From a virus, in IMG/VR virus record IMGVR_UViG_3300050821_010560, positions 1 through 64,000 of that record: a stretch of DNA of 64,000 bases, one strand, 5' to 3'. The position numbers were made by a program, and so were the translations under genes. Below are positions 1,751 to 41,371 of this stretch, piece by piece (within the stretch, counting starts at the first letter, position 1; each line of letters begins with the position of its first letter). The notes below the pieces were generated by a model that saw only the letters and a program-made list of their open reading frames with translations, ran no database searches and was not told the origin of the DNA.

Positions 1751-2578
1751 TTATTTTGCTTTCCGCATCATGGCAAAAATGACAGTGCTGATTAGACCGC
1801 CGAGAGCGATCAGCATCATGATCCCGGCAAGCACCCACGCGGCAACTTCTCCCCGCCCTGTCTCGGTCGCAGTTGCGCCAACCCGAGACTGGCTTAAATT
1901 TCTAACCTCTCGCAGCAAATCCTGAATGACAGGGTCCTGGTAGGCCGTTTTACCCTTTCCTTCGGCCCCGACTTGCTCCAGCGTGGTAATGCGCGACGAT
2001 AGCGCAGCAAACTGTTGTTGCTGTGCGGCTGCCGCCGTCGCTGCTGTTGTCGCCACTAGTTGGCGCAGTGCCTCGGCGTTCGTGGTAGCTTGGTTTCTCA
2101 ACACTTCGGCACTTTGGTTGACCTGATTGGCCAGTGCCGTTGCCTGGACATCTGATCGCTGGCTTGCGGTCGTCACTGCATTCACATCAACAGCACGAAT
2201 GGCATCGATACGCTTGGCTTCCGCGATCGAGAGTTTCTCATTGTATTCAGCGCGTATCCTAGCCTCACCATCCAATCGCGCTGCTTGAGCTGCCGCCAAG
2301 ACTTGCGCATGATCGTAACGTAATTGGCTGATTTTTTCTTGTGCACTGATTTCTGTTTGCAGCAGCTTGTCGAGGGCATTGCGTAGGTCGTCCTGACGGC
2401 GGATTGCCGCTTCGACCAGATCGAGCACGTTTTTCGTCGGGTCGATGACAGGCTGCCCGCGCGCATCGACGACAATACCTGGACGCGATTCTTTTGTATC
2501 TTGTCCTACTGCCGTCTGGGCAGTTAAGGTAATAAGCAGAACTAAAAATACGCTTGCCTTACGCAACATGTAACTCAC
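1751..2578 (-). CDS. Exported coiled-coil protein with C-terminal membrane anchor
   Basis: 275 residues (GTG at 2578, or ATG at 2569). N-terminal Sec signal peptide (LRKASVFLVLLITLTAQTAVGQ), then a long Ala/Gln-rich coiled coil (about residues 50-220), then one membrane segment close to the C-terminus (VAAWVLAGIMMLIALGGLI) and a basic end. Topology is a periplasmic rod with the C-terminus in the inner membrane. It overlaps the preceding holin-like gene by GTGA. A spanin-like or envelope-bridging lysis role is possible but unproven. Confidence 0.6.
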   Translation of the reverse strand: MSYMLRKASVFLVLLITLTAQTAVGQDTKESRPGIVVDARGQPVIDPTKNVLDLVEAAIRRQDDLRNALDKLLQTEISAQEKISQLRYDHAQVLAAAQAARLDGEARIRAEYNEKLSIAEAKRIDAIRAVDVNAVTTASQRSDVQATALANQVNQSAEVLRNQATTNAEALRQLVATTAATAAAAQQQQFAALSSRITTLEQVGAEGKGKTAYQDPVIQDLLREVRNLSQSRVGATATETGRGEVAAWVLAGIMMLIALGGLISTVIFAMMRKAK

Positions 2579-2952
2579 TTTTTAGGTGCTACAAATCCGT
2601 TCGTCACTTTGACATTGGGAACGGCCGCAGCCAGTTCCTTCGTCGTCGTGATGTTTTTCACTTCCGGCAAGGCCGCGGCAATCGCGAGCTTGTCCTGTGC
2701 CGGCAATGCTGCCGTTGCGGTGTTTATGTCATGCGCAGGCATGGCCGCGACACTGGCGACTTTGCCCTGGTTGGAATGCACCACGAAGGACCAGATGCCG
2801 CCGCCGATCGTGACGATGACGGTCATGATCTCGGGAAGGTTCGCCAGCAGGCCCGCGGCTTGTGCGGATGTCATCCACCCTCTCCCCGCCATATAGGCGA
2901 GGAGCGGGGGCAGCACGATCCGCAAGATGCCGAATATCTGATCCTGGTTCAT
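2575..2952 (-). CDS. Holin-like protein
   Basis: 125 residues. N-terminal hydrophobic segment (ILRIVLPPLLAYMAGRGWM), then a second one (EIMTVIVTIGGGIWSFVV), then an Ala-rich soluble tail. The GRGWMTSAQA segment and layout resemble a family of short phage holins annotated as Pam3 gp28-like; this is from memory, not a search. It lies in the lysis region with the endolysin at 3950-4558. Confidence 0.6.
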   Translation of the reverse strand: MNQDQIFGILRIVLPPLLAYMAGRGWMTSAQAAGLLANLPEIMTVIVTIGGGIWSFVVHSNQGKVASVAAMPAHDINTATAALPAQDKLAIAAALPEVKNITTTKELAAAVPNVKVTNGFVAPKK

Positions 2953-2957
2953 GGATA

Positions 2958-3236
2958 TCAGGGCGTCGGCAGACCTGTGGTTGGAGGAGGTGTGATGCCG
3001 GTGACCTGGTCCAGGATTGCGGCAAGCCCGTTCACCACTGCCAGGATCTTGGGCATGTAGGGAGCAAGACCCGGAAAAAACATGGCAATGATCCCTGCAA
3101 TCAGGCTTTCGGCATTCACTGCCTGGTGGATGATAGTGTCCAGGTTGGTCAGCACGCCGGTTGACGGAACAGGCGTGCTGGCGGCGTTAGGAACGACGGG
3201 GGTCTGTACGTTGGGTGGGGTCAAGGTAACCTCCAT
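2958..3236 (-). CDS. Small Pro-rich protein with hydrophobic helix
   Basis: 92 residues: Pro/Thr/Val-rich first 30, a hydrophobic amphipathic region (SLIAGIIAMFFPGLAPYMPK, then ILAVVNGLAAIL), Pro-rich end. Overlaps the upstream outer-membrane barrel gene by 16 nt. Could be a membrane-active lysis accessory; no family recognised. Confidence 0.5.
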   Translation of the reverse strand: MEVTLTPPNVQTPVVPNAASTPVPSTGVLTNLDTIIHQAVNAESLIAGIIAMFFPGLAPYMPKILAVVNGLAAILDQVTGITPPPTTGLPTP

Positions 3237-3889
3237 TTCAGGTTCACCTTGAATACCTCACTTGCGGTAGTGTTGGCAACTACTACCCCCATCGGGCCGG
3301 CCGTCGTTCCGAAGTTGAGCGTTTTGGCGGGCCAGACGTGGTCCCAACGGGCACCTAAGCTGAACGGTCCCATCGGCACGTCCAGGCCGGCACCCGCCAG
3401 GATCGCGTTCTCCCAGCTCGCCGCTGAGCCCACATTATCGACCGTGGCGGATATCTGCGACTGCGACATGCCGACAGAGACGAACGGGGTAGCTCCGCCG
3501 AGCCATGCCTGCGGCAAGCCGAAATCGACACGTTCGGTGATAACGCCTCCGTGCGAGAAGTGGCAAGCAACCCCCATTCCCAGGCAGGATGCACCACCTT
3601 TGCCGAAGTCGTACTCCGCCTCACCCAGAAGGCGGAACATCACGATATTTTTCCACTCATAACCGAAAAGTCCGCCCGCACGCGCGCCGGCTACTTCGAG
3701 TGTGCCGGTTCCGGTGTTAAAAAAGTCGAAAGAGTGGTTGACAACCGCGCCGCCTACTTCGACGCCCATGACCCAGAAACCGGTCGGCGCCGCGATGTAG
3801 GAGGGAGCCTTAGTGGGAATAGCCATGTCGGCAGCGAACGCGGACACAGCGGACAGAGCGAGGATGGTACCGGCGAGAAGTGATTTCAT
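3221..3889 (-). CDS. Outer-membrane beta-barrel protein, porin-like
   Basis: 222 residues. Clear signal peptide cleaved after SAVSAFA, giving a mature start ADMAIPTKAPS. The rest alternates hydrophobic and polar residues in Gly/aromatic-rich strands (VGGAVVNHSFDFF, MFRLLGEAEYDFG) and ends in KVNLKWRLP. This fits an 8-stranded OmpA/Omp25-type barrel of the kind abundant in Hyphomicrobiales, though the last residue is Pro rather than the usual Phe/Trp. A Cys pair (SCLGMGVAC) may form a disulfide. Likely host-derived; may alter the surface of the infected cell, for example receptor masking. Confidence 0.75.
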   Translation of the reverse strand: MKSLLAGTILALSAVSAFAADMAIPTKAPSYIAAPTGFWVMGVEVGGAVVNHSFDFFNTGTGTLEVAGARAGGLFGYEWKNIVMFRLLGEAEYDFGKGGASCLGMGVACHFSHGGVITERVDFGLPQAWLGGATPFVSVGMSQSQISATVDNVGSAASWENAILAGAGLDVPMGPFSLGARWDHVWPAKTLNFGTTAGPMGVVVANTTASEVFKVNLKWRLP

Positions 3890-3949
3890 GGGACATCTCC
3901 GTTTAATGGAGTCGCCACGATATACGGAAAACGTGTTACATATTTACCA

Positions 3950-4558
3950 CTAATTGAATTTAATTGTGTCGTCCAGTTCCAGCATCTTCTTGAGCAGTGC
4001 AGCGCACCCTAATTGCGTGTCCCATACGGATCGATTGAACTGTCCGTCACCAGTGTACTTGCCGATCTCCTCGATGCTGGTCGCTCCCCAATCATAGGGG
4101 CTCGGCTCATTATGGTATTTCTCATAGCCGATGCCGTTGTAAAGAATCAAGATTGTCAGCACGCCGCCGATCGACCAATCCGTCCAGCGCGCGGTGTACG
4201 GAGGTGTGTTTTGTAAGGTGTCGACGGCGCAACGGTGCCAAGCGTCGTGCCCTGGACCGTCCGTAGAATGATGCAGGTAGGGGCCACGTCCCTTTGGGAT
4301 ATGCCGCGACACATGGTCGAGCGGATCTCCTTGGCCAAGTTGCTTGGTGAAGTCTGCGTCGCTCTCGCGGTAGGCAATAACACCGACAACCGGCCACGGC
4401 ACATTCGTTGCCGCTTCGACCGCCTGGTAGCGGAACTTAGCGTTTTCTTCTACCAAGCGTTCGACCGCCTTGATGACCTCTGCTTCGCGGCTCGGTAAGA
4501 TGTGGCATTCATCCCATCGCTGCCGGTTAGCTTTGATCAGCCAGGAATAGTCGGTCAT
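3950..4558 (-). CDS. Endolysin, lysozyme-like
   Basis: 202 residues. The core VIAYRESDADF, with a probable catalytic Glu in YRES, is followed by QGDPLDHVSRHIPKGRGPY and later ILYNGIGYEKY and DTQLGCAALL. This arrangement is typical of a lysozyme/muramidase family in phages and prophages of alphaproteobacteria. No signal peptide, so release would depend on the nearby holin-like proteins. It follows the small exported gene at 4566 with a 7-nt gap. Confidence 0.75.
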   Translation of the reverse strand: MTDYSWLIKANRQRWDECHILPSREAEVIKAVERLVEENAKFRYQAVEAATNVPWPVVGVIAYRESDADFTKQLGQGDPLDHVSRHIPKGRGPYLHHSTDGPGHDAWHRCAVDTLQNTPPYTARWTDWSIGGVLTILILYNGIGYEKYHNEPSPYDWGATSIEEIGKYTGDGQFNRSVWDTQLGCAALLKKMLELDDTIKFN

Positions 4559-4565
4559 AGAGCCC

Positions 4566-4787
4566 TCATTTTGGAAGTTCTTTCTGCTGCTCGGTTACCT
4601 GCTGGTTCAGCTTACCCAGCAAGGCGGCTACTTCCTCGTACGGCCGCTTGACGAGCGCCGTGCCGATCATCTGGATCTCCGCCATGGTGAGCTTGAGATC
4701 GTATTCCTTGACAGGGGGAGCCGGCGGCTGCTGAGCGAAAGTGGTTGAGGATAAGATTAGAAACATTCCAACGAGCAGTTTTTTCAA
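4566..4787 (-). CDS. Small exported protein
   Basis: 73 residues with a strong Sec signal peptide (MKKLLVGMFLILSSTTFAQ). The mature part is about 53 residues, with a Pro-rich start and then an amphipathic helix. Cleavage looks like signal peptidase I (no lipobox Cys). Directly upstream of the endolysin, so a periplasmic lysis accessory is possible. Confidence 0.6.
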   Translation of the reverse strand: MKKLLVGMFLILSSTTFAQQPPAPPVKEYDLKLTMAEIQMIGTALVKRPYEEVAALLGKLNQQVTEQQKELPK

Positions 4788-4806
4788 GGCGTGCTCCTTT
4801 CGCGTG

Positions 4807-6552
4807 TCAGCACACAGTTAGCACACCTGAATTATTCCACAAGCGTCCCGTACCGGTACATCCACCCGGTGCAGAGGTGGGTAAGTTGGGCATTAATACT
4901 TGAGAAACTGATCCCGCCGCCTGCTGCCCACCAGATAGAACAGTAGTCGCATTCGGATTAGTGCCGATCTGGTCGTTGAATGACATGAATCCGTAGAAGA
5001 ACAAACCGTAACCCGATAGGACCAACGAAATCCCGAACTGGTTGTTCATGCTCATCATGGTAACCGGCGATCCGGTGGCGCCGGTCGTGGCGTTGCCTTG
5101 CTCGCCGACGAGAATGGCATGGGTGTTACCCGTCGCATAAGTGGTGCCCTGTCCTAACCCCGTGCTGACGGAAGACACCGAGCCGGAACCAATGAGCGTG
5201 ACGGAAGACCCGAGCTTGTAGAACCCATCGGCAAGCTGGTTGATGTTTGCCACTCTCGATCCGATGACCGTGAACGGGGCAACGCCGCCTTTGAGATCAA
5301 GCTCGCGAAGATTCCCTTCGTTCTCGATCTGCTCGATGATGATCGAGTCTGTCAAGTTTCCTTGGGCCAAAACTCCCGTGCCGCCAAACCCGCCGCCAAG
5401 GTGGCGGATGTCCGCGCTGCCGCCGAGAATGGCGACCTGTATGTCGCATCCGGTAATCTGATTATAGTATATCCGCGTATGTTTGGCATTCTGGCTGGCG
5501 CCTTGTCGAAGGCCGACACCGAAATTCGTTCCGGTCGTGATCTGAACATTTGATAGAGGGCTTGCGCCGATGTAGCCGACTATCCATGACGGCGCGGCGG
5601 CAAGAACGACGGTAGTCGAGTTCGTAAAGCTGGCGATCGTCGTATCCCAGAACAGGCCGCCTTGGCTACCGGGAAAACTCAGCCGTATTCTCTTGCCTGC
5701 ATCCCCGGAAACGAAAGCCGCCGTGGCGCTCGTCAGGGTCGTGCTGCCGCTCGTCACGACTCCATCGATCGCCCGGTTGGTGCTGAGCTGCCCGCTGTCA
5801 CAGGTGATCGTGTTGTCGTGGATATAGTAGTTTTCGTGGTTTGTTGTCGCGGTCCTGCTCCAATCGACGGCGACGAAGCTGGCATTACTTAGGCTGCTGT
5901 GAATGAAATCATTCCACCCAACTTCGGCCTGCGTACCGACGTGCGATCCTCCCGTCGTTCCATCGAACTTGAGAAAGGCATTGACCGAATGCACTCCATC
6001 GGTGACGAAGCGAAAACCGCGTATGGTCGGATGATCGCAATGCTCGAAATCGAACATCACCCCATTGTTGGCGCCGACCCATACGAACTGCGGAGCACCG
6101 CCGCTATCCTGCTGCCGTATGCCGGAAGTCAGGACAAGACCAACGCGATCGGTTACTGTGACAGTAGAACCAATATGCAGAGTGCAATCGGTGGGAAAAA
6201 ACAGCGTCGAACTGTCAGGAATGGCAGCAATTGCCGTTTGCAAGGCACCTGCCGAATCCGTCGCTCCCGTACAGTCCACCCCGGTAAACCCAGTTGCGGT
6301 GTAGACATTCGGCGTCGAGACCAGCATGTCGAGCATGGTCTGCCGCAGCTTGGTCGCCGTGCCCGCCGCACCCTGACCGGACGCCTGATTGGTGTTGATG
6401 TCTGTCGTTATTCCACTCGTCGTCTTCGACCCGCCGGTCTGAGCAGAAGCGGCGAGCGAGAACACAAGGATGAGCGCGGCGGCTCTAAACGTTGAAGTCA
6501 GCACTGGCGAAGTCCGCAGGGTTGAAGTCGTGAGAGGAACTGGCCGATCCAT
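4807..6552 (-). CDS. Exported beta-helix (pectate-lyase-like) tail-spike-type protein
   Basis: About 581 residues from ATG 6552. A GTG at 6504 would give a better signal peptide (MLTSTFRAAALILVFSLAAS) and may be the true start. After the signal come a Ser/Thr linker and DCTGATDSAGALQTAIAAIP, typical of the start of phage pectate-lyase-3 beta-helix spikes, then Gly/Asn-rich coils to about residue 500. The final segment CTGTGRLWNNSGVLTVC carries a Cys pair. By fold it should bind or cut a surface polysaccharide; export is unexpected for a virion spike. Confidence 0.7.
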   Translation of the reverse strand: MDRPVPLTTSTLRTSPVLTSTFRAAALILVFSLAASAQTGGSKTTSGITTDINTNQASGQGAAGTATKLRQTMLDMLVSTPNVYTATGFTGVDCTGATDSAGALQTAIAAIPDSSTLFFPTDCTLHIGSTVTVTDRVGLVLTSGIRQQDSGGAPQFVWVGANNGVMFDFEHCDHPTIRGFRFVTDGVHSVNAFLKFDGTTGGSHVGTQAEVGWNDFIHSSLSNASFVAVDWSRTATTNHENYYIHDNTITCDSGQLSTNRAIDGVVTSGSTTLTSATAAFVSGDAGKRIRLSFPGSQGGLFWDTTIASFTNSTTVVLAAAPSWIVGYIGASPLSNVQITTGTNFGVGLRQGASQNAKHTRIYYNQITGCDIQVAILGGSADIRHLGGGFGGTGVLAQGNLTDSIIIEQIENEGNLRELDLKGGVAPFTVIGSRVANINQLADGFYKLGSSVTLIGSGSVSSVSTGLGQGTTYATGNTHAILVGEQGNATTGATGSPVTMMSMNNQFGISLVLSGYGLFFYGFMSFNDQIGTNPNATTVLSGGQQAAGSVSQVLMPNLPTSAPGGCTGTGRLWNNSGVLTVC

Positions 6553-6592
6553 GCCAGAATAACAGGACCAACGATAGAACAAAAAGGTTCAT
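6485..6592 (-). CDS. 35-residue signal-peptide ORF
   Basis: The ATG at 6592 overlaps the stop of the upstream gene as ATGA, the junction used throughout this operon. The product starts MNLFVLSLVLLFWHGSAS and ends DFNPADFASADFNV. It is read in a different frame from the start of the spike gene at 4807-6552 and overlaps it. It may be a real exported peptide, a leader for coupling, or a remnant. Confidence 0.4.
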   Translation of the reverse strand: MNLFVLSLVLLFWHGSASSSHDFNPADFASADFNV

Positions 6593-7506
6593 GGTGGCCC
6601 CCAGACCTGTACGGATTGGACCGCGATGAACGGCCCGCCGAGGATTAGGATGTACGACATGGTGTCCGCGACGCTATAGACACCGGTAGGGCTCCCAGTC
6701 GAACAGGGTGCCGACGCGGAGGAGGTGTATGTCACATCCGCCGCAGTCTTGTGCACTCCATCAACCCAGCTCTCACGCCTACCTGTACCGGAGTTGAGAC
6801 TCATCGGCACGATAGCTTTGGCGTAGGTATGCAGAGCAGTGTCGATCGCGCCGCTTATCACCTGGCACCCGGCGTTGAGTTGCGTGTTCGAAGCACCGGT
6901 CCATTGATGTAGGTTACTCAATGCCCCGGAGCTATCAACCACCTCCATGATGTCATCCTCAACCCAGGTAGTTATTCCTTGGTTGAGGTGCGGTAGCGGC
7001 ATCATCCAGAATGAGGAGTGGGGATTGCCCTCGACAGCGGAGTTCAGCGACGCGACCATCTGAACGAAGAAGCCCTTGCTCGCATCGAACAGATATCCAC
7101 AGTACGAGCCGTTGTAGGCAGCGCCACTCGTACTCACGGCCGTTAGCAGGCTCAGGTTATCCGTATTCGTCGAGGCGAGGAGACCCATGCCGTTGGCATT
7201 GATCGACATATTGCCGGATGGTGTCGGCGAGTCTCCGCCCCCTCCGCCGAACCAAGTGAGGTTGGTAAACCAGGCATAGCCGGAACTACAGTTCTTTGTA
7301 TTGTTCAGATCAACCTTGGTGAGATCAGTGAACTTGACATAGAAAAGGCACTTGCTGAAGCCCCAGTTCGTCGCACCGGTTGGCGCACTCGGAGCACCAC
7401 TGGTGCAAAACTCGCTCCCATGCGTGAAGGGCTTGCTCGGCAGTACGCTTGCGCCGAGATATAGCAGGGCAAGGGATGCGAGAATGGCGAGCATTCTAAA
7501 GCTCAT
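6589..7506 (-). CDS. Exported concanavalin-like protein with GH16-type motif
   Basis: 305 residues. N-terminal signal sequence (MLAILASLALLYLGASVLPS), then a beta-rich domain. Residues near 178 read WVEDDIMEVVD, matching the GH16 catalytic pattern E-x-D-x-x-E, within a Trp/Gly-rich jelly-roll context. Five or more Cys suggest disulfides outside the cytoplasm. May bind or hydrolyse a beta-glucan-like exopolysaccharide. The start ATG directly follows the TAG of the preceding gene. GH16 assignment is from the motif only. Confidence 0.6.
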   Translation of the reverse strand: MSFRMLAILASLALLYLGASVLPSKPFTHGSEFCTSGAPSAPTGATNWGFSKCLFYVKFTDLTKVDLNNTKNCSSGYAWFTNLTWFGGGGGDSPTPSGNMSINANGMGLLASTNTDNLSLLTAVSTSGAAYNGSYCGYLFDASKGFFVQMVASLNSAVEGNPHSSFWMMPLPHLNQGITTWVEDDIMEVVDSSGALSNLHQWTGASNTQLNAGCQVISGAIDTALHTYAKAIVPMSLNSGTGRRESWVDGVHKTAADVTYTSSASAPCSTGSPTGVYSVADTMSYILILGGPFIAVQSVQVWGPP

Positions 7507-8388
7507 CTAGCACGTACCCGACGAAATGCCAGCAATCGTCGTCAGATATAGGTTCGTTTCGTGACAAAGGTTCGTCACATCGCCAGCGGTCAGATTTCCT
7601 CCGATCGTCGCGGACATGATCTGATAAGCACCGCCGTTGTCCGCAGTCGTACCGGTCGAATGCTGAAGCCCAAGTATGTAGACATTTCTACTCACTAGAG
7701 CTGAGGAAGTTGTATTCGGATTTTGGATATTCGAGGCGTTCTTATAAAGTTGGTTGGTACTGCCCCCATTCCGATTGACAACGAAGTGACCAAGGCTATC
7801 AGCAACGGCTACTCCAGAAGCGTAGGCATTATTGACGTTACCTTGAGCATTGCCAGCTTGCCTGATAATAAGGGCGGTTGTAGAAGTAAAGGCGGGTTCA
7901 TTATAGCCAATTACTGATCCCTGACTAGCTGCGGCATTTAAGTTTGTGTTGCTCCATACTGAAACATGCCCCGCATTCTGAGCAAAATTTCCCCCGGCCG
8001 TTGACGGGTTAAACCCGGTATCAAGAAAATCGGTTGTCGGGTTAGCCGCAGTTCCTAGATATCCCGCGTCTACGGTAAAACCCGGCGCACCATTCACAAT
8101 TGCCGTGAAGCTACTCGAAACGATATTGAGCAAAGCATTGCTGGAGCTGTTCGTCGCAAACAGGTAGGCAGCGTCCAGCTTGGCGAATACTCCCTGCACG
8201 TCAAGGTTACAAATCCACTGCCGGTAAGCTCCTCGATGCTTGACATCAACCGAGGTAGTGCGGTTCAAAAAGGTAGTGTATTTGGCGCAGTTCGAGCTGC
8301 CAACCATGAGAACCGGCAACTGCGCGTAGGCGCCATACCCCGCAACCAGGGAAAACCAAAGAACGCAAAAGGCAAATAACCGCTTCAC
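7507..8388 (-). CDS. Exported lectin/fibre-like protein
   Basis: 293 residues from the GTG at 8388, chosen because it begins a signal peptide (VKRLFAFCVLWFSLVAGYGAYAQ) and GGGGA lies just upstream; the frame upstream of it does not look coding. The mature part is Asn/Thr/Ser/Gly-rich and beta-predicted (CNLDVQGVFAKLDAAYLFAT, FLDTGFNPSTAGGNF), similar to concanavalin/laminin-G-like ends of phage fibres. Cys pairs at both ends. The GTG shares one base with the TAG of the small ORF upstream. Confidence 0.65.
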   Translation of the reverse strand: MKRLFAFCVLWFSLVAGYGAYAQLPVLMVGSSNCAKYTTFLNRTTSVDVKHRGAYRQWICNLDVQGVFAKLDAAYLFATNSSSNALLNIVSSSFTAIVNGAPGFTVDAGYLGTAANPTTDFLDTGFNPSTAGGNFAQNAGHVSVWSNTNLNAAASQGSVIGYNEPAFTSTTALIIRQAGNAQGNVNNAYASGVAVADSLGHFVVNRNGGSTNQLYKNASNIQNPNTTSSALVSRNVYILGLQHSTGTTADNGGAYQIMSATIGGNLTAGDVTNLCHETNLYLTTIAGISSGTC

Positions 8389-8552
8389 TAGAATCCCCAA
8401 AACGTATGCTGATTCGAGTTCATCGAACTCTGCTGGCCCGTGCTGAAGCCTACACCCCAGATCCCCGCCTCGAACAGGTTGCCATTGAAACGGTTCGTGT
8501 TGTTCGCATTCGTGCACATGCGGATCGTACTCCCGATCGCATCGACTTCCAA
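8388..8552 (-). CDS. Small ORF resembling a fibre C-terminus (possible fragment)
   Basis: 54 residues from a TTG at 8552 with GGGGG 7 nt upstream. Contains STIRMCTNANNTNRFNGN and LFEAGIWGVGFSTGQQ, which look like the last strands of a lectin-type fibre domain. The ATG at 8589 starts a signal-like peptide (MIYKLLVIWGLLIGS) in another frame, so one exported 66-residue protein may be split by a +1 shift near 8545. Either a decayed gene, a sequence error or a true small protein. Confidence 0.4.
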   Translation of the reverse strand: MEVDAIGSTIRMCTNANNTNRFNGNLFEAGIWGVGFSTGQQSSMNSNQHTFWGF

Positions 8553-8585
8553 TTAACAGCCCCCAAATGACAAGGAGCTTATAGA

Positions 8586-10274
8586 TCATTGCACCACCGT
8601 AACCGCGACACCACTTAGCTGTGCTGCTGTGCTGGTGATGAGGCAGAAGTCGTTGGCATTGACCGTTGAGGCTGCAATGGCCTTAGCTCCCGTGCCGCTC
8701 TCAAACCCTTGGTTAGCAGCAAGGTTGATCCCAGTCGCTGCCGTCGTGCCGCCGATCAGGCCAAGCGTTGAAGTCGCGCAGTTCGTCCCGGAGCCCTCGA
8801 CGATGCCAACGTTATCCGCAGCGGCGGCGAACAGGAACAGGTGGCAGATATAAGTCTTCTTAGCTGATGTGCCTGTGACAATCTTGGTGTTCGCTGCAGA
8901 GGATATATTGATCGGCGTCCACACATGCGCGTTCACGTCGCATGGATCGCCGACAAGGCCCGTTGTGTTGCCGCCGATGTTGACACCCTGATAGATCGCA
9001 TTCGCGGGTACGGCGCTCGCCGTGGCACCGGCACCTAAGCCGGCTACAGCTGAGTTGTCCGAAGCGATATTCATCCGCTGCGAACCGGTGCCGCTGACGC
9101 CGTTGTTCATCAGCGGCGTGACGCCATTGAACTGAGACACGTTTACGGACTGGTTTGCCGGCAAGGCGACCGAGTCGGGCGTGACGAGCAGTTTAGTCAT
9201 GCTCGCGATGCCCTGCACGGTCACGACGTTAGTGCTGGCGGTTCCGGCCGTACCTGGGGCTGAGCCGGCGATAGTCGCGGTGTCCGTGCCGACCGCAACT
9301 CGTTGGGTGCCGGTACCGACCGCGCCGGTCCCGGTCAGGACCGTCACACCATTGACTTGCGCAACGTTGACCGATTGGTTGGTCGCCGTGTTGGCGACGA
9401 TATTGGCGTTGATCGTCTTGGGATCATAAGCGACCGGAACAGTGTGCCCGGTAACCGTGATGGTGCCGGCCGAGTAGGCGCTGATCCGCGCACGGATATT
9501 CTGGAAACCGGCTACCGGCATCTGCCAGATCGTAATACCGGAAGTCGTTGTGGTCGTTGCAAGGGTCGTTGTGCCTACCTGGACGGCAGTGACTGCCGTA
9601 AAATTAGTGTTATCCTCTGTGGCCTCAAAATTTACCGTCGTGCCGCCAGAGCAGGATGCGCAATTCACCGTCAAGATAGCCGACGACATCCCGTTGACGA
9701 GAAGAAGTGTGCCGTTACCGTTGGCTACCGCGGCCGATTGCAACGTTCCGCTCACCGGAATCGATGCGACCTGACCAACATTGCCGATCGTCGCCGATCC
9801 AGCAGGGATAGACGAGCTGACCGCGTTGGCGACGAACTTGGTCAACGCCTCGAGCGAGCAAGTGCCGGTCGCGCTTCCGCAGACCGCATCGGCCTTAGCA
9901 CCAAGCGTTACATTCGCGCCATCGGCTTCCGTCGCAGCGGCTTGCACGGCAAATGTGCCTGTGCCGACAACAGTGGCATTCAAGCTCGCTGCCGTCGCCT
10001 GGCTCACTGTCACCGTGCCGCTGATAGGCACAGCTTGCCCGCCTGAAATACCCTGGATGGTCAAAGCGCTCGTGCTCGGCGATCCCGCCGCGCCTGTCAG
10101 CGTCGTTCCCGTGGTATCCGTAGGAACACTTAGCGGGCAGATCGTCGAGGAGCAGTTGAATGTCTTGAACGTCTGCGTGGCCCCCGCAGCATCCTTGGCC
10201 GTGATGGAAGTCTGACCAAGCGCAGGAGCGCAAGCAATGAATAGAAGGAGAGCGGCTAGAAGCTTTTTCATCAT
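8586..10274 (-). CDS. Exported repeat-rich fibre-like protein A
   Basis: 562 residues. Signal peptide KKLLAALLLFIACAPALGQ, then Ala/Thr/Val/Gly-rich beta repeats. Units such as ATAASLNATVVGTGTF and VTVQGIASMTKLLVTPD recur and are shared with the 608-residue protein encoded at 10709-12535. Cys pairs (FNCSSTICPLS, VNCASCSGG, DAVCGSATGTC) fit an oxidising location. Such repeats are typical of phage side fibres; no enzymatic motif. Stop overlaps the ATG at 8589. Confidence 0.65.
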   Translation of the reverse strand: MMKKLLAALLLFIACAPALGQTSITAKDAAGATQTFKTFNCSSTICPLSVPTDTTGTTLTGAAGSPSTSALTIQGISGGQAVPISGTVTVSQATAASLNATVVGTGTFAVQAAATEADGANVTLGAKADAVCGSATGTCSLEALTKFVANAVSSSIPAGSATIGNVGQVASIPVSGTLQSAAVANGNGTLLLVNGMSSAILTVNCASCSGGTTVNFEATEDNTNFTAVTAVQVGTTTLATTTTTSGITIWQMPVAGFQNIRARISAYSAGTITVTGHTVPVAYDPKTINANIVANTATNQSVNVAQVNGVTVLTGTGAVGTGTQRVAVGTDTATIAGSAPGTAGTASTNVVTVQGIASMTKLLVTPDSVALPANQSVNVSQFNGVTPLMNNGVSGTGSQRMNIASDNSAVAGLGAGATASAVPANAIYQGVNIGGNTTGLVGDPCDVNAHVWTPINISSAANTKIVTGTSAKKTYICHLFLFAAAADNVGIVEGSGTNCATSTLGLIGGTTAATGINLAANQGFESGTGAKAIAASTVNANDFCLITSTAAQLSGVAVTVVQ

Positions 10275-10278
10275 GCCC

Positions 10279-10446
10279 TCAGTGCAGCAGTTCCATCATG
10301 ACGGGGATGTTGCAACCGGTCGCGACCGAGAAGTCGGTTGAGATGTTTCCACATGGTGTTAGGACTACAGTCGTTCCCCCCAATAGAGAACTCTGGGCAC
10401 TTGCCTGGCTGGCGCAAAGAAGAAGGATTATGATCCAGCGTGTCAT
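10279..10446 (-). CDS. Small exported Cys protein
   Basis: 55 residues: MTRWIIILLLCASQASAQ signal peptide, then SSLLGGTTVVLTPCGN and a second Cys (ATGCNIPVM). Starts with ATGA over the stop of the preceding gene. No long open frame competes on this strand. The product resembles a fragment of the fibre-like proteins around it (two Cys, short beta strands). Confidence 0.55.
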   Translation of the reverse strand: MTRWIIILLLCASQASAQSSLLGGTTVVLTPCGNISTDFSVATGCNIPVMMELLH

Positions 10447-10712
10447 CCGACTATCCATGAGGTTCCATTGCAGTAAACGAGCGTATGGATTGCACCGCCA
10501 CCGGTTACAGCGGAAAGAGCGACCGGCGTAAGTGCATCAGTCACGCCGTAGATCATGCCTTCAGCAGCGGCGTTACACGTGGGTAGAGAGCCAACGACCG
10601 AGGTAGGGACTTTACCCGACGTAGACGTTGTTACCAATTCCGCATGCAGGAATAGAGGCGAAAGCCCAATAACTGTAGCTAGAAATATTCCAAGAGGCAT
10701 TACCCATCTCAT
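10443..10712 (-). CDS. Small exported fibre-tip-like protein
   Basis: 89 residues from ATG 10712, which overlaps the upstream stop as ATGA and has GGGAGAGG upstream. Signal peptide RWVMPLGIFLATVIGLSPLFLHA. The end reads AIHTLVYCNGTSWIVG, a motif often found at the end of phage tail-fibre modules (CNAAAEG... CNGTSW). The two Cys probably pair. May be a receptor-binding tip exported separately. Confidence 0.6.
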   Translation of the reverse strand: MRWVMPLGIFLATVIGLSPLFLHAELVTTSTSGKVPTSVVGSLPTCNAAAEGMIYGVTDALTPVALSAVTGGGAIHTLVYCNGTSWIVG

Positions 10713-12535
10713 TGCACCTCTCCCGATATAAATGCTGTTGCACTCGCGGTCTTCGTAAAGCACCCAGTCGTGGAGAAACTAACCGTTATGCCTGTAGCAA
10801 AATTCAGCGGCGGACCTGGTATCCAACTCGCGCCTAGCGTACCGTTAGCAGCAAGCTGGTAGCATTTCTTCGGTGTCACGGCGCCGTCAGCAGGCGCCGA
10901 CGTGGCATCAAATACCAGGACAAAACCGGCAGATGCGCCCGAAGTCACCTGGAAAGAATAGAGGTTCCCCGCACCAGCTTTAAGCACCAGGTTCGCTGCG
11001 GCCGATCCAGTTACGACCGGCGCAATGCCCATGCTGGCGGTAGCGGTTGGGCCTACACCAACACGAAGGTCACCAGCGAGATCGAGGGAGAGGAGGTTAG
11101 TCTGGGCAGTTGTGTAGGCAGGTGCGGCGCTCGTGACAGCGCCCATAATCGGAGAACCGATCTGGCCCGAGGTCGTCGAACCTTGCGCAACACCACCAGT
11201 GATCTTCAAATTCTTGTTCGTGTCAACCTGAAGCTGATCCCAGGTCGTACCGTTGAAGCCGTAAGTATAAGCGACCGTTGGCGTATTGGTGCTCGACGTA
11301 GCCACGCCGGATGAGGCATTGCTCGTTGCGCCTGTTGAACCACCGGCCTTGATGTTGACCAGGAGGTTGCCGGCACTGTCGAGCTGGAACGGGCTGACGT
11401 TGCCCGACGTGATCGTCGTTGGGCTGGTGTTGAACTGCCCACCGATGAGTATCGAGTTGGCCGGACTCGCGGCATTCTGACCAGCAAAATCTAAAACCGC
11501 ACCAACATTACCAACGATGCGCGCAGTCCAGTTACCGGACTGGCTGGCGGGCACCGCCGATTGGTTGGAAGCGATCACGACCGGCAGGCTGGCCGCCATC
11601 GCGGCCTGCCCGATGGCAATCGCCGAGCCACCGACTTGCGTAAGATTCTGCGTCCATGGACCCGACGCCTGCGTGACGGCGCCAATAGTATTGGCTCCGG
11701 TCGGCAGGGCGGTATTGACCGTCACGTTCCAAGTGCCGCTTTGCGCGGCCTGCACTACGAATGTGCCGGTACCCACCACGGTAGCATTCAAGCTCGCAGC
11801 GGTCGCCTGCGACACTTGCACGGGCGTCATCGACGCAATGCCCTGCACGGTCAGCACCCCGGTCGCGGCTGAACCGGCGGTGCCCGAGCCGGTCACGAGC
11901 CAGGGCGTCGTGTTGGCGGTATTGCCCGGCTGCACCGTCCAGATACCCGACTGTGTGACCGCTTGTGGGGAAGCGAAAGTAATGGCTGGAAGGGTGGTGA
12001 CGGTACCGATATTCCAGGTGCCCGACTGCGTTGCCGCGACGGTGCCCGTGACCGTCACGGTGCCGAACGAGTTAGCGGCTATATTGACGTTGAGATTCTT
12101 GGAGGCGTCTACCCGCAGCCGGTCGAACGTCGTACCGTTGAAGCCGTAGAGCCAGGCTATCGTCTGCCCGTTGGTCGCACTCGTCGCCACCGCATCGGAC
12201 GCATTGCTGGAAGTGCCTCCGGCGCATCCGACCGCGCAATTTATCAGCAGATTGGAAGAATTGTCCGCTGCCAAATTAACCATATTGGCGCCGTTCTTGA
12301 CGCCGATAGCCGTACCGGTACCGGGAAACGCTGCGCCGAAGGTTGACGACGTGCCGCCAGATCCGCCGCCTGCTACCACATTAACCGGCAGCGGCGTAGT
12401 GGAGGAACAAGGCGCCCACGGATTGATGCCGGAACCGGTATTGCACCAGAGCGCAACCGCGGTCTGCGCATCAGCCGGTGAATAGCCTAAAAAGCAAACC
12501 AGGAGCAGCAATAGTGCAGCGAGTCTGTAGCGCAT
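10709..12535 (-). CDS. Exported repeat-rich fibre-like protein B
   Basis: 608 residues. Signal peptide RYRLAALLLLLVCFLGYSPADAQ. The mature part starts AVALWCNTGSGINPWAPC (Cys pair), followed by Gly/Ser linkers and long beta repeats (ASLNATVVGTGTF, AAQSGTWNVTVNTALPTG, GPWTQNLTQVGGSAIA). Two blocks with DRLRVDASKNLNVNI and WDQLQVDTNKNLKI look duplicated. Related to protein A (8586-10274). Predicted fibrous trimer or stalk; no enzyme motif. Confidence 0.65.
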   Translation of the reverse strand: MRYRLAALLLLLVCFLGYSPADAQTAVALWCNTGSGINPWAPCSSTTPLPVNVVAGGGSGGTSSTFGAAFPGTGTAIGVKNGANMVNLAADNSSNLLINCAVGCAGGTSSNASDAVATSATNGQTIAWLYGFNGTTFDRLRVDASKNLNVNIAANSFGTVTVTGTVAATQSGTWNIGTVTTLPAITFASPQAVTQSGIWTVQPGNTANTTPWLVTGSGTAGSAATGVLTVQGIASMTPVQVSQATAASLNATVVGTGTFVVQAAQSGTWNVTVNTALPTGANTIGAVTQASGPWTQNLTQVGGSAIAIGQAAMAASLPVVIASNQSAVPASQSGNWTARIVGNVGAVLDFAGQNAASPANSILIGGQFNTSPTTITSGNVSPFQLDSAGNLLVNIKAGGSTGATSNASSGVATSSTNTPTVAYTYGFNGTTWDQLQVDTNKNLKITGGVAQGSTTSGQIGSPIMGAVTSAAPAYTTAQTNLLSLDLAGDLRVGVGPTATASMGIAPVVTGSAAANLVLKAGAGNLYSFQVTSGASAGFVLVFDATSAPADGAVTPKKCYQLAANGTLGASWIPGPPLNFATGITVSFSTTGCFTKTASATAFISGEVQ

Positions 12536-12544
12536 TGGTGCATC

Positions 12545-14920
12545 CTAGTTGTTAGCTATCAGCTCAACGGACATGCTGCCCCGCGTCGTGTTGGCGGTTG
12601 CCGACGACACGAAACGGAAGGCGATCAGCGCTCCCGCGGGGATGTTCGTCGGCCCGCCCTGGAAGCTGCATGTCGTAGCCGAGCCCGTGATCGTGCAGGC
12701 GGCTCCGGAAGCCGAGCCGTTCACCAGCAAAGTGGTAATGAAGGTCTGCACCCCTCCCGGCGAAGCCGTAGTGCTCACCTGAAGGTCGGCAGCCGTCATG
12801 CTGGTAGGGATGTAGGTGGCACAATTGGCTGCAGCACTTGTGTCGACGCAGCCGGTACCGACGAACGTCGTCGTATTCTGTGCCAGCGTCGCCGTGGAAA
12901 CTCCTTGGTAGATAACGCCGTTCTTAATAGACTGTAGCGACCCGCTTCCCGCCGAGTTCCAGGTGTTGGACCCTAAGATATAGCTCGACTGCGTGGTCGA
13001 CACGCCATTGAGTGTCGAGGCGTTGGCCAGCAGAAAAGCATTGGTCGGTGTGACCGGCTGGCTCTCGGTCTCGAATGTCGTATTGAGCCAGGAGACGTTG
13101 GTGCTGGCCCCCAAAAACTGCACATACTCAACACAACCGCCGGAAATTACCCCGCCATACCAGCCGATATTGTTAACCGTGTCGAGCATCACGCAATCGT
13201 TGTTCGCGCTTGCTCCCGCGAACTTGTGCATCTCGGTATTGAAAAAATGGATGTCGGATGTCGACTTGGTGCCGCTAGTCACCGTAGCAAAGGAGGAAGA
13301 CAGCGTAGCCTGGTTGGTGCCGGTAAGCCGGATTACGTCCTGGGTACCGGCGCCAGGGAAGTAGTTGTAGAAATCACTACCGACGACACGCCAAGACGGC
13401 ACACCGTAATCGTAAAGCGCCGCCACGCTGTACTGTCCGGTGACATAGACCTCATCAATCATGAACCGGGTCGATACGCCAGACGCCACCTGAGCAATGA
13501 ATATACCGGTGGTCGGTTGCGCCAGTGTCTGGAACGATCCTATCTGGAAACGGCTCAGCGTAACAAAAGACGAACCCGTTAAATCAAAGACATGCCAGGT
13601 CGCTGTATTAAGCGCGGCAGTGCCAGCCCACTCGTAGAGCACCGATTCGTTAATTCCATCGCCGTAATACGTAAGATGATTGGCACCGGTCGCATTGATC
13701 TTCTGGACCATGCAGGAACCGGTAGGATGGTAGACCGGCCGACCGGACGATACGCCGGCCGCAATGGCGTTATTGATCGCGGTGGTATCGTCGGTACCGT
13801 ACTCGACTATCTTGCCGGAAACCGATCCTCCGGAGCTATTAGCAGCCCCTAAGACGACGTGCGTCGTGTCGGTAAAGCTCGTAATCGTGGTTGCCAGCAC
13901 TACACCGGCCGCACCGGCTCCGGCAACTTGAATCTCTTTTCCAACATCAGCTGCTGAAAAGTTCGCACTCGCGCTTGACAGCGTGAAGGAACCAGAACTC
14001 ATGGCTCCATCAGATAGGATTGTGTAGTTGCACAAAGCCCCGTACTGCGGATCACGGATGTTCACAACCGGAGCAACTGTCGTGAACGTACAGTCTTCGC
14101 GCAAAAACCGCGTCGTCGAAGCGGTCGCCCCAGGATCGGGTACGAGGCCCTTGGCGTGACTTGCACCGGAAGCAACGCACGGATTTAAAAATGCCGTTAC
14201 TGCAGCAGCCGTGGCAGCTATTCCACCGTCGATGACATTTCCGCTTGCATCAAACTTGGACAGATTCCCGCTGGGCAGCGATCCGCTCGTGGTGGCAAAA
14301 ACCGTTGTGTTCCCCGATCGGGTGCCGGATGACGGCGTGACGCCGGCTCCCCCGCCGATCACCGGGTTGTTGGCGGTGAGCACGCCGGAGGAAGTGAGGG
14401 CACCGGTCGCGGTATAGCCGGGGATACCCCCCGATGTGCCGGCGCCGAGCGATACACCCGCATCACTCATCCCGCCCGATCCGTTAGTCTTCACGAGGTC
14501 GTTGTTCGTGAACGGGCCGGTGATGGTAGCGAATGTGGTGCCAGGTGAGCTGGGGAAAGATATCACCGTTCCGTTGATGACAATGTTGAGCCCTTGCGGT
14601 GCGGCACCACCGAAATTCTGCAAGCTGATCTGCGCATTGGCAGCCGTTGAGGCGGCAAGACAGAGCTGATTGTAGGCACCCGTAATTGCAGCGCTGTTCA
14701 CGCAGATGCCGGGACCGCCGTTGTTAGTCACACCGAAACTGGTAGCTACGCCAGATGCCGCCGACCCACCGTCACCGATCACACCGGGAGCGAGCCAGAC
14801 AGGGACGTGGCCGATCGTGACGAAACCTGACTGCTGAACTGATTGACCATAGACAACCGTTATGGACGCCAAAAAAATTAGAAGGGGGGCAACGAGGTTT
14901 TTCAGCAGACGGTTTTTCAT
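12545..14920 (-). CDS. Exported beta-helix tail-spike-type protein
   Basis: 791 residues from ATG 14920, which overlaps the upstream stop as ATGA and starts a signal peptide (KNRLLKNLVAPLLIFLASITVVYG). Residues about 40-270 are Gly/Ser-rich repeats (stalk). Then VNIRDPQYGALCNYT and YGTDDTTAINNAIAAG mark the start of a pectate-lyase-3-like beta-helix, followed by repeated GDG/NTTF strands to the end. Fold suggests polysaccharide binding or depolymerisation. Largest member of the exported cassette. Confidence 0.7.
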   Translation of the reverse strand: MKNRLLKNLVAPLLIFLASITVVYGQSVQQSGFVTIGHVPVWLAPGVIGDGGSAASGVATSFGVTNNGGPGICVNSAAITGAYNQLCLAASTAANAQISLQNFGGAAPQGLNIVINGTVISFPSSPGTTFATITGPFTNNDLVKTNGSGGMSDAGVSLGAGTSGGIPGYTATGALTSSGVLTANNPVIGGGAGVTPSSGTRSGNTTVFATTSGSLPSGNLSKFDASGNVIDGGIAATAAAVTAFLNPCVASGASHAKGLVPDPGATASTTRFLREDCTFTTVAPVVNIRDPQYGALCNYTILSDGAMSSGSFTLSSASANFSAADVGKEIQVAGAGAAGVVLATTITSFTDTTHVVLGAANSSGGSVSGKIVEYGTDDTTAINNAIAAGVSSGRPVYHPTGSCMVQKINATGANHLTYYGDGINESVLYEWAGTAALNTATWHVFDLTGSSFVTLSRFQIGSFQTLAQPTTGIFIAQVASGVSTRFMIDEVYVTGQYSVAALYDYGVPSWRVVGSDFYNYFPGAGTQDVIRLTGTNQATLSSSFATVTSGTKSTSDIHFFNTEMHKFAGASANNDCVMLDTVNNIGWYGGVISGGCVEYVQFLGASTNVSWLNTTFETESQPVTPTNAFLLANASTLNGVSTTQSSYILGSNTWNSAGSGSLQSIKNGVIYQGVSTATLAQNTTTFVGTGCVDTSAAANCATYIPTSMTAADLQVSTTASPGGVQTFITTLLVNGSASGAACTITGSATTCSFQGGPTNIPAGALIAFRFVSSATANTTRGSMSVELIANN

Positions 14921-15222: not shown

Positions 15223-15445
15223 CCTGCGCTTCCGGTTGCTGCAGGGTCTTGCGGAACGCGGCGAACGTATCGCCCTCGTCCGCCGGAGGCGCATCACCCT
15301 TGGTCTTAGCCAGGATCGCATAGTAGGCGGCGACCGCCTTGAAGGCGTCGAGCCTTTCGTGGAAAGGAAGGGGTTTTTCAGGAGTTTCGAGGCATTCCGT
15401 TATAAGTTTTTCCGCGAACCGGTCGATATCGGCCTTGAGACTCAT
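15125..15445 (-). CDS. Small helical phage protein
   Basis: 106 residues from ATG 15445, overlapping the upstream stop. The first 65 residues look like a compact helical protein (MSLKADIDRFAEKLITEC, LDAFKAVAAYYAIL). The last 35 are basic, low-complexity and overlap the next gene by 98 nt; they include the palindrome copy at 15152-15178 in another frame, so the C-terminus may have been lengthened by that insertion. Confidence 0.55.
   Translation of the reverse strand: MSLKADIDRFAEKLITECLETPEKPLPFHERLDAFKAVAAYYAILAKTKGDAPPADEGDTFAAFRKTLQQPEAQDGREPDAGKIHPGRRSAFARGSGGPVRSSYGS
15152..15178. repeat. Dispersed palindrome copy, long form
   Basis: Arms TCCGCC and GGCGGA with a 15-nt middle containing CGGAGCCTCTTGCGAA. 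Outer base pair is T:A instead of C:G, changed on both arms. Lies inside two overlapping genes. Confidence 0.65.
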
Positions 15446-18400
15446 TGCACCGGCTCCAGTTCCTGCCCTTGATTCTGCTGCTGGTGCACGGCTTGTGACA
15501 TTCCCGACCCACGTGCTCCGCCGCGACGCATGGCTTCTCGAATCATTTCGCGCGCAGCTTCTTTCGCCTCCGGATCGCGGCTTTCCAACGCACGTTCGAG
15601 GAAGCGTAACGTTACAGGGCTCGTTACCAGCTTGCGCATGGTCGCAAAATACTCTCCCAGCATCGACCGCGCCAGGAAATTGGCGCCAGGCAGCATCTTG
15701 ACTGGTCCCGCGATTTTGCCGAGCCCGGTGATCACGCCCCACGGATGCTCGACCGTGGTTCTTGCCAACATGCCCGACGCGGTTCCCTCCTGCAACGATT
15801 TAGATGCTGTCCCTTGCAGCAAGGCCATCTCTTTAGCGAGGCGCTGTGCAGTTTCCAGTTTTACACCGGGAAACATCAACTGCTGCACTTCCGGCGACAC
15901 CTTGGCAAGGCGCTCACCGGGCGTGAGCGTGCCCTGAAGGATACGCTGTGCCCATATCTGACGCATCAAATTAAATTCTGCCGACTGCTCCCCTCCTTCG
16001 AATGCCTTGGACGCGGCAATGATCAAATCCTCGTTGCCGAGAATGCGATCTACGGCTTCGGTCGCGAGCGTCGTCGGATCATAGAGGAAATGCAGCGGAT
16101 CGGCCTTCTTCTCAGCCGTAAGCCGTTTCATCTCGATCTTGAGCGCTCCCAAAGGTTCACGTTTAGCCGCGGCCTTAAGTGCTTCCGCCGTCTGGTGTGC
16201 CTTGCCGATGATATCGCGCACCGTATCGCCTTCCTTCGGCGTGATTTCCAGCCGTCCGCCCAACATCTCGATGCGGCGGGCCTGCTCGCGCAGCTCGCCC
16301 GCACCTTTGCTACCGTGCACGACCTCGAGCATGTTGTGCTGATCACGCTTGAGCACTTCCTTGGCAAATTTCTGTCCGTCTACCACGCCGGGCGTGAGCG
16401 TCTTGCTCAGGTCCAGCATTTCCTGCACGTCGGATGCACGAATACCGGCCCACACGTTGGGACCAACGATGCTCTCGATCTTGCGCGCTACTTCCGTGCG
16501 ACCATCCTTGAGAATTAGGTTGTTCAGCACCTTGGGATCGGCCGGCATGCCGGCGCGCAGCCCGTTTACCACGCCCTGTATCTGCGTATCGTTCAACGGA
16601 CCCATGTTCTCGGCGTAGAATTTATCCGCTTCGCGCAAGGCGCGTGACGCTTCCTTGAGTTCCGGCACCGCGTGGGCATCGTGCAGGATCTGGTCTACTT
16701 TGCCGGCGAAAAACTTGTAAGTGCCGTTCCACTGGTCGGAAGTGAGATCGGACCAGTTGACGTTGCCGCGAAACTGGGAGCGCAGATTATGCAATTGCCC
16801 CCAGGTGGGCTCTACGGGCGGTTTTTCCCACTCGCCGGGAACAGGATTACCTTCCAGGTCGGTCTTCGGCTTACCCGCGAGATCGCGCAGCTTGCGCACG
16901 ATATCGGGGTGCTTGGTTTGAAAGTCGCCCGGCAGATCCTCGATAAATTTTTCCGCTATCTGCGACAGCCCGGCGGCATCAGGCTTGATGTCGCCCGCCA
17001 GATGCTGCGCATTGTCGTACATGATGCGGGCACGCCCCTGGATACCCTCCCTAAAAGCCTTGATCTCCTCCCCGACCGTCCACCACAGGTCACCGCTGTT
17101 GTGTCCAGCTTTAGTCGCCTTCATGGCGGCATCGATATTGCCGCGGATATGGTCGAAACCCTGGTCGATCAAGCCTTGAGCAGCCTTGCGGGCGTCATCC
17201 GCATCCTTTCGCAACTGCTCGACGCGGATAGACTTCTCCGCTTGAGTCGAGGTTTTCATTCCCTCAAGCGTAGCGTTGAGCCTGGCATCCGCCTCAACCG
17301 ATTTTTGCTGTGCCTTGGCAAGAATGGTTCGCCCGGCTTCCTCGGTACTGACCGCCGCGGTCGGTTTCTGGATCGACCCCTCGGTTTTTACCCCCATATC
17401 CTCGAGCAACTGCCCGGCTTCCCGCTCGTAGTGGCGTTGCGCCGACTGGTAGAGCGGTTTTTGGGTGTGCAAGGCAGGTTCCCGCACTTCCGTACTGATA
17501 TGGATGTGCGGGGCTTCCTTGAAGATGGCAGATGGAGGCGTTGCCGTACCAGGCTCGGTAATGCCAAGCTGTCCGAGGAAGCCATGCCCCGGCGTTTCGC
17601 CCTCTGTTGCCATCCGGGAAGCCATCTTGAGTGCTTCCGGGTCGGTACCGAGCACGTAATTTATCGCCTTGCCCGACCCGCGCGCCATCTGGCGGCCGGC
17701 TTCCTTGGCGACCGGCACGGCTGCCGAGATCATGCGGCCGGCACCCTCGCCGACCGCGCCGACCGCGCCGGATACGGCTAAATTCTTCGCCTCCTCAAGC
17801 GCCGTGCGATCATAGATGCCAGCCAGCTGTAGAACGATATCATTGATCGCCTGCCCCCCTGCTCCACCTATTCCTGCCCCGACAACGCCTCCGGCTACGG
17901 CGCCCGTGATATTGCCGGGGCCGGGTACGGCGGTTCCTGCCGCGAAGCCTGCACCTCCACCGACCATCCCGCCAAGAACGGAACCGGTGATGGGGGCGGC
18001 CATGCCGGTAATCGCGCCGGGGATCGCAGTTGCCCCACGGCCGGGCTTGCGGCGCACACCGCCTTCCTCCTCGACGTAGAACTCACCCGATCCCTCCTCC
18101 TGCTTCACCTTGCCGGGGTAGGACCGCTCGAGCGCCTTGCGCCGCTCGGCATCGGTGAGCGACATGTCGTATAAAGTCTGCGCGGTGTAATCGATCCCTT
18201 CGAATTTCGGCTTCATCCGCCGCTCGCCGTTGGGATCGATGAAATGCTCCCCCTCCGGCACGACGGCGTAGTCAGCATCGGTGCTGACATACCAGGGTTT
18301 TTTGCGCGACTTGCCTTCCGGGTCCAGGAAATGCGATCCCGGCCGCAGCGCCTGATAACCGGCATCATCGGTGACCGTTGCCGGATGAAGCTCGGTACCG

Positions 18401-22231: not shown

Positions 22232-22569
22232 CCTATCTCCAGTAGGTTCGCTGCCTGAAAGTGCTCGTTGGCGTTACCTTGTATCCAACCGCCAAGCTGC
22301 GTGGGGTCTTTCCAGTCAACCGTGGTCAAATCATACCCCTTTATCCCCAGAATTGCATCTATAGTGTTGTGCATGGTCTGATGCTGGTATAGCCACAACT
22401 CCATGTCGGCTGGACTGAACGGGTCGAGGACATAGGACGGCACTGTGATACCCGTTGCCTTGAGGATAGCAGCATTGATCTCGACGTGGTGCACCGCATG
22501 GTTGAAGCTCCATTGCGCCAACTGGTCCGGATTGGCCGGAACATTGAAGATTCCGGCGATCCCGCTCAC
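22228..22569 (-). CDS. Tail-region protein of unknown function
   Basis: 113 residues, His/Trp/Asp-rich (WSFNHAVHHVEINAAIL, LYQHQTMHNTIDAILGI). The regularly spaced His and Trp suggest a compact helical fold, possibly metal-binding. ATGA/TGA overlaps with both neighbours place it in the tail operon. No family name recalled. Confidence 0.55.
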   Translation of the reverse strand: MSGIAGIFNVPANPDQLAQWSFNHAVHHVEINAAILKATGITVPSYVLDPFSPADMELWLYQHQTMHNTIDAILGIKGYDLTTVDWKDPTQLGGWIQGNANEHFQAANLLEIG

Positions 22570-40183: not shown

Positions 40184-40185
40184 AA

Positions 40186-40260
40186 CTACGTTTTCCACAT
40201 TATAGAACCTAGAATCGCTCCTAGAAGAATTATGATCACGTAAAACTGCCAATCTAGCAT
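40186..40260 (-). CDS. 24-residue transmembrane micropeptide
   Basis: Starts MLDWQFYVIIILLGAILGSI and ends MWKT; a single membrane helix with a basic end. Strong Shine-Dalgarno (GAGGAGGG, 4 nt before the ATG at 40260), the best in this area. The downstream TPR gene starts right after its stop. Confidence 0.55.
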   Translation of the reverse strand: MLDWQFYVIIILLGAILGSIMWKT

Positions 40261-40272
40261 ATGCCCTCCTCG

Positions 40273-40287
40273 CCAGCCGCAGGCTGG
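40273..40287. repeat. Dispersed palindrome copy, short form with paired base changes
   Basis: CTCG, CCAGCC, loop GCA, GGCTGG, TCA. Compared with the other copies the third arm base is changed on both strands (A:T instead of C:G), keeping the stem. Intergenic, at the end of the gene at 40288. Confidence 0.65.
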
Positions 40288-41352: not shown

Positions 41353-41371
41353 GATTCCCTCTCCAAGTGTC

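Follow-up and report, generated by a model that had tools for sequence, protein, structure and literature searches.

The host range of a phage is set by its tail fibres, which in the usual view are put together in the cytoplasm, and the question raised by the locus described here is what a long run of fibre-like and spike-like genes whose products begin with export signals could be doing in the genome of a tailed phage. The locus lies in a metagenomic soil phage, IMG/VR virus record IMGVR_UViG_3300050821_010560, of which 64,000 of the 65,926 bases were analysed; this whole stretch is called the window. The genome reads as that of a podovirus-like phage, and the block in question occupies positions 1751..14920 on the minus strand. 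The reading that we favour, and regard as somewhat probable, is that its tail fibres and spikes leave the cytoplasm by the Sec pathway, acquire disulfide bonds while folding in the periplasm, and become attached to virions during lysis or after it. For comparison we used forty-odd related viral contigs, which came from searching with proteins of the window and a single repeat domain; labels of the form L### denote related viral loci.

Export signals and cysteine parity

Signals were called with a home-built scorer of the n, h and c regions, which gives 6.7-9.9 for 10 known E. coli signals; at a cut of 7.3 it accepted 1.6% of internal 75-codon windows (false positives) against 23% of the N-termini of the same open reading frames. 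The earlier note on this DNA had named eleven starts as Sec signal peptides, and in all of them the scorer finds a hydrophobic core between a positively charged n-region and a cleavage site of AxA type. Their scores run from 6.3 to 10.2 and bear this claim out: 7.2 for the product starting at 14920, 10.2 (12535), 6.4 (10712), 8.7 (10446), 8.6 (10274), 9.3 (8388), 6.3 (7506, the weakest), 8.1 (6504; 7.2 from the alternative start at 6552), 8.1 (4787), 8.1 (3889) and 7.9 (2578). With a cut of 6.0, which was picked for the window genes after the scores were seen, a Sec-type signal is present in 11 of the 14 block genes and in 0 of the 31 other genes of the phage (Fisher 4e-8). The scorer found no signal in the remaining three block genes, namely the endolysin-like gene (4558..3950), the gene at 3236..2958 and the holin (2952..2575).

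The same features recur in the 107 fibre-like signal-bearing proteins of the window and its relatives. Every one has a lysine or arginine within residues 2-8, Ala stands at -3 in 81 and at -1 in 106, the latter being partly built into the scorer, and a permutation control alongside the -1 count gave 96/107 observed against 64 expected. Two other explanations of these N-termini were rejected. Production from an internal start would place a ribosome-binding-site start near the cleavage point, and this was found in 0/107; lipoprotein anchoring would need a lipobox, and lipobox-like sequence occurs in 4/107 and in none of the window signals. Two signal-bearing proteins with the same kind of gene position have twin-arginine signals (L014:14839-17700, SRRKFLCG; L034:14157-16937, DRRQLIAG), and from these motifs the twin-arginine (Tat) route may be used too.

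Cysteine parity offers a test that is independent of signal prediction. Exported bacterial proteins show a bias towards even numbers of cysteines, in E. coli and in B. pseudomallei, as discussed in PMC7678975. Among the fibre-like signal-bearing proteins that contain cysteine, the mature part has an even number in 92 of 100, against 43 of 84 fibre-like proteins from these loci that lack a signal, and 144 of 318 other proteins, where the fibre-like class is defined by composition and homologous families are not fully independent. The result survives clustering: with one member per homology cluster, even counts are found in 30/37 signal-bearing and 20/39 signal-less fibre-like proteins. For 35 proteins an odd number of cysteines lies within the signal; 31 of these have an even count in the mature part, but only 4 have one over the full length (p=2e-6). 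In the window the mature counts from 14920 to 4787 are 12, 6, 2, 2, 10, 4, 6, 7 and 0, in agreement with the paired cysteines reported earlier, and a single cysteine within the signal would turn the total odd in four of these proteins. Because parity is even only after removal of the signal, the pattern is the one expected if the signal is cleaved and the remainder oxidised, and export and oxidation of the fibre-like proteins are thus strongly supported at the level of sequence. The even-cysteine test is also a cheap way of spotting exported phage proteins in metagenomes.

Position, spread and docking domains

The block sits between virion genes and lysis genes, directly leftward of a gene for a large, ejection-type virion protein (15442..18537, minus strand), which is the podoviral fibre position. 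The order from large virion protein to first signal-bearing gene is found also in L002/L093 and in L092, and isolated phages too have a fibre gene after the large internal virion protein. Little space separates the block genes: the gaps measure -16 to 84 bases, with a single exception of 197. In that gap (8389-8585, minus strand) lies a fragment in another frame (..STIRMCTNANNTNRFNGNLFEAGIWGVGFSTGQQSSMNSNQHTFWGF) that resembles the last stretch of a lectin-like fibre domain, possibly the remnant of a swapped receptor-binding cassette.

At least one fibre-like signal-bearing protein occurs in 38 of 58 distinct loci, window included, and runs of 3-5 signal-bearing genes occur in 15 of the 58. 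They comprise repeat fibres, glycine-rich tips and proteins with pectate-lyase-like, arabinofuranosidase-like and apiosidase-like domains, and from these last three domains polysaccharide degradation by some members is likely. The isolated phages searched contained no signal-bearing homolog, and no homologs at all of the 12535 and 14920 products or of several signal-bearing relatives. The proteins are unlikely to come from bacteria: 33 viral loci contain the DFAGQNA domain, against one bacterial genome (genome_contigs collection), and it was not found in any other of the 396 Acidobacteriota genomes.

The best lead towards a role in the virion comes from a related phage. In L062 the first signal-bearing protein has a podoviral tail N-terminal domain directly after the signal (phrog_13893 3-128, phrog_1640 3-118). 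The profile of this docking domain matches Dpo31, the tail spike of phage Carin-1 (hmmsearch, E=2e-26), and an AlphaFold2 model of it, with a pLDDT of about 72-92 across the beta-sandwich, has as its best Foldseek matches the Carin-1 tail (8ck1, E=1e-6) and the LME-1 portal-tail structure (9efk). In six phages (L075, L077, L078, L096, L098 and L100) a signal of about 21-33 residues stands exactly before residue 2-3 of the corresponding domain, D1 of Dpo31/Carin-1, so that the junction reads [signal]-[T]V/I, whereas D1 starts with MT-V/I and no signal in L076, L080, L081 and L101 and in the isolates HTVC010P, HTVC035P and Carin1 (Dpo31). The mature cysteine counts of the six signal-bearing docking spikes are all even (10, 16, 2, 12, 12 and 4), D1 is under purifying selection among signal-bearing pairs (dN/dS, the ratio of nonsynonymous to synonymous substitution rates, of 0.16-0.45), and it occurs once per record in the three signal-bearing records tested. 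A docking domain kept behind an export signal most simply indicates a virion part that would be exported before docking.

We propose that the block forms the module for tail fibres and tail spikes of a podovirus-like phage. These would be translated late in infection with cleavable Sec signals and would cross into the periplasm of a diderm host, where they would lose the signal and fold with disulfide bonds through DsbA-type oxidation, while particles without fibres or spikes would be assembled in the cytoplasm. Once holin and endolysin opened the cell, particles and fibres would meet and dock, at or after lysis, and the docked proteins would add receptor-binding and polysaccharide-degrading appendages. 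The signals, the even parity confined to mature parts, the missing alternative start, the position in the genome and the docking domain of six relatives can be read from the DNA; the periplasm as compartment, DsbA-type oxidation, the timing and docking to virions after export are what we infer from them.

Several observations weigh against this proposal. The window record has no recognisable docking domain, and the six spikes that have one belong to other phages; L076 and L080 encode a docking spike without signal besides their signal-bearing fibres. The signal calls come from a home-built scorer, and the proteins are known from metagenomic contigs. For virions to meet periplasmic fibres the inner membrane would first have to be breached, and fibres set free would become diluted.

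The proteins could also be explained in three other ways. They might not be virion parts at all, accumulating instead in the periplasm until lysis releases them as free adhesins or depolymerases that loosen polysaccharide or act as decoys. The enzyme-like domains of several relatives (pectate lyase, arabinofuranosidase, apiosidase) would suit such a role, as would one related protein (L003_11751) consisting only of a signal and a C-terminal fibre tip (phrog_863 398-606), the lack of a recognised docking domain in the window proteins, and the fact that the block ends in lysis genes. However, signal-bearing genes take the tail-fibre position, and six spikes retain a docking domain that is under purifying selection and is the sole copy in the three records tested; we consider this explanation rather unlikely, if the strongest of the three discussed here. 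Improbable in our opinion is masking of the infected cell's receptor from within the envelope by exported receptor-binding parts, which would block superinfection or the re-adsorption of progeny to debris, in the way that Llp of phage T5 masks FhuA. Export itself, the receptor-binding type of the sequences and an outer-membrane-like protein nearby (3889) are in line with it, but one protein would suffice where there are up to nine diverse ones, some of them enzyme-like, an outer-membrane anchor is missing (lipobox-like sequence in 4/107, as above), and the retained docking domains would be left unexplained.

Very improbable is the idea that the N-terminal stretches are hydrophobic tags for contact with membrane or virion and that assembly is cytoplasmic as usual. 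It would agree with well-studied phages, whose fibres assemble in the cytoplasm, but the even-cysteine bias is found in the mature part only, also where the signal holds an odd number; the boundary is sharp, with a conserved mature start behind differing signals; and the same domains have signal-less homologs, one of them without cysteine. The earlier note had left the role of the proteins open among receptor masking, capsule degradation, aid to release and attachment to virions. Of these, attachment is favoured by the tail-fibre position and the six docking domains, degradation of polysaccharide is likely for some members, and receptor masking found no specific support, while export of the fibre-like proteins is strongly supported.

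The genes of the window

The first fibre or spike (12545..14920, minus strand, as are all genes of the block) has the signal MKNRLLKNLVAPLLIFLASITVVYG, a pectin-lyase-like part and 12 mature cysteines. Its mature N-terminal domain, starting with QSVQQSG, is common to five relatives and has an invariant cysteine pair; the structure model of this domain was of too low confidence (pLDDT 41) to show the pair. In all 6 members found of this family the signal stops at one and the same point (QSVQQSG/VTVNQSG), although the signal sequences differ. The match to relatives is confined to the first 100-150 residues and the C-terminus varies; a conserved N-terminus with a variable remainder is what is expected of receptor-binding proteins. 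The second fibre (10709..12535) has 6 mature cysteines and is rich in the repeats GAVTQxSGPWTQNLTQVGGSAI and DFAGQNAA..IGGQFNT. It is followed by a small protein (10443..10712, 2 mature cysteines) with the fibre-end motif PTCNAAAEG..YCNGTSW, which matches the C-termini of two signal-bearing proteins (L004_4125 and L011_7592), and by a 55-residue signal-bearing peptide (10279..10446, 2 mature cysteines).

The third fibre (8586..10274) is again repeat-rich, has 10 mature cysteines and is 59% identical across 254 residues to a signal-bearing fibre, L028_8462. The next product (7507..8388, 4 mature cysteines, phrog_18498) shares its signal and two conserved cysteines with a signal-bearing relative, L003_12498. 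The following one (6589..7506, 6 mature cysteines) contains EDDIME, so that the glycoside hydrolase family 16 (GH16)-like motif noticed earlier is present, but as a motif only, since searches of profiles and PDB sequences gave no match. The last spike (4807..6504) is pectin-lyase-like, with 7 mature cysteines, its final residue being a cysteine. The pectate-lyase character attributed to the 14920 and 6504 products is supported by matches to phrog_32881; such pectin-lyase-like profile matches are the evidence for catalytic folds in the window, while matches to enzyme families are found in some relatives. PDB sequence searches with the 14920, 7506, 3889 and 3950 products gave nothing useful, and single-protein scans with the 8388 and 14920 products gave no close relatives.

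Towards the lysis genes the block encodes a 73-residue signal-bearing protein without cysteine (4566..4787). Together with L011_9750 it forms a signal-bearing family of 73-83 residues (IGxALxxxPYxxVAxxxxxLxxQ), which in the window adjoins the endolysin-like gene and is possibly a lysis helper. The latter gene (3950..4558), without signal, is named from sequence pattern and position, and we take it to be endolysin-like by resemblance to lysozyme-like proteins of alphaproteobacterial phages; neither it nor the next product found a family match in profile and PDB sequence searches. That product (3221..3889) is signal-bearing and outer-membrane-barrel-like, Omp25/31-like by eye. Another signal-bearing barrel-like protein with the same alphaproteobacterial likeness by eye stands beside fibre genes in L074 (L074:13216), and the two give a hint of the host group or of receptor replacement. 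After a gene without signal (2958..3236) come the holin (2575..2952, Phage_holin_10, PF23987 match) and a signal-bearing coiled-coil protein that has a membrane segment at its C-terminus (1751..2578); no signal was detected in the matching stretch of L028_5646. The earlier note had counted the barrel and the coiled-coil protein with the fibres; they do have signals, but with lysis genes as neighbours they do not have to be grouped with the fibres. Adjoining the lysis cassette, a small and very hydrophobic protein (1398-1685) is possibly a second holin or an antiholin.

Outside the block, terminase-like (34500-36431), portal-like (32224-33945) and capsid-like (29233-30273) genes and tail genes (23251-27049) were assigned partly from position and from matches to relatives. 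Within the tail genes, a fibre-like protein without signal (22566..23246, minus strand), with relatives in L002/L093, L092 and L094, might at a guess be a virion docking point or primary fibre. Between head and replication genes (37974-45398) there are an FkbM methyltransferase, a TPR protein and a resolvase, with epimerase- and glycosyltransferase-like genes recognised by eye, possibly a cargo set for sugar modification.

Comparison with known systems

These sequences suggest the export of disulfide-bonded fibres by Sec and their addition to the particle outside the cytoplasm, a route of which we found no earlier description for tailed phages; the earlier note knew of no described phage system of this size, and our searches of open-licence papers likewise found no report of signal-bearing tail fibres. 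Whether an uncultured, widespread group of tailed phages really splits its assembly, with capsid and tail made in the cytoplasm and fibres and spikes exported by Sec, oxidised in the periplasm and joined at lysis, is in our judgement evenly balanced. If many soil phages export their fibres, there would be a second site of assembly and disulfide-stabilised fibres would be normal in tailed phages; such fibres would be mislabelled by pipelines in which a signal peptide counts against a protein being part of the virion.

The nearest relatives in domain content are the tail-spike depolymerase Dpo31 of Cobetia phage Carin-1 (8ck1, PQ119497) and the T7-gp17-like tail fibres. The six related phages have the same docking beta-sandwich and coiled-coil, in some a pectate-lyase-like part follows, and the gene order after the large internal virion protein is the same; however Dpo31 starts with MTVPTNDN and has no signal, whereas in the spikes of the soil phages a signal of some 21-33 residues comes first and the mature cysteines are even in number, and the Dpo31 docking domain is not found in the window's own signal-bearing proteins. 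Fibre-like proteins that start with MSDxNSSLPVRT (L018, L019, L022 and L027) have GAVTQSGGPWTQNLTQVGGSAI repeats as in the window's second fibre (12535..10709), but an N-terminal domain replaces the signal, and the signal-less fibre-like class as a whole lacks the even-cysteine bias. Similarly, a gene of Microcystis phage Mwe-JY13 (2343-3254), placed after the portal gene, is a homolog of the window gene 8388..7507, with 33% identity over 80%; it has neither signal nor cysteine, while the window and L003 copies have a signal and a conserved cysteine pair.

As for phage proteins exported by the host, T5 Llp is comparable in this respect, but it is a small exclusion lipoprotein, whereas the window has an array of fibre-like genes in a structural module and a search for a lipobox in their signals found none. 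The closest working analogue is pIII (g3p) of M13, which has a cleavable Sec signal, is disulfide-bonded outside the cytoplasm and is joined to the virion there. M13 is an unrelated, extruded filamentous phage whose pIII stays membrane-anchored until assembly, while here the fibres would be soluble and lysis would depend on holin and endolysin. If the proposal is true, tailed phages would have in these fibres their equivalent of M13 pIII, and neighbouring phages could share or exchange them after release.

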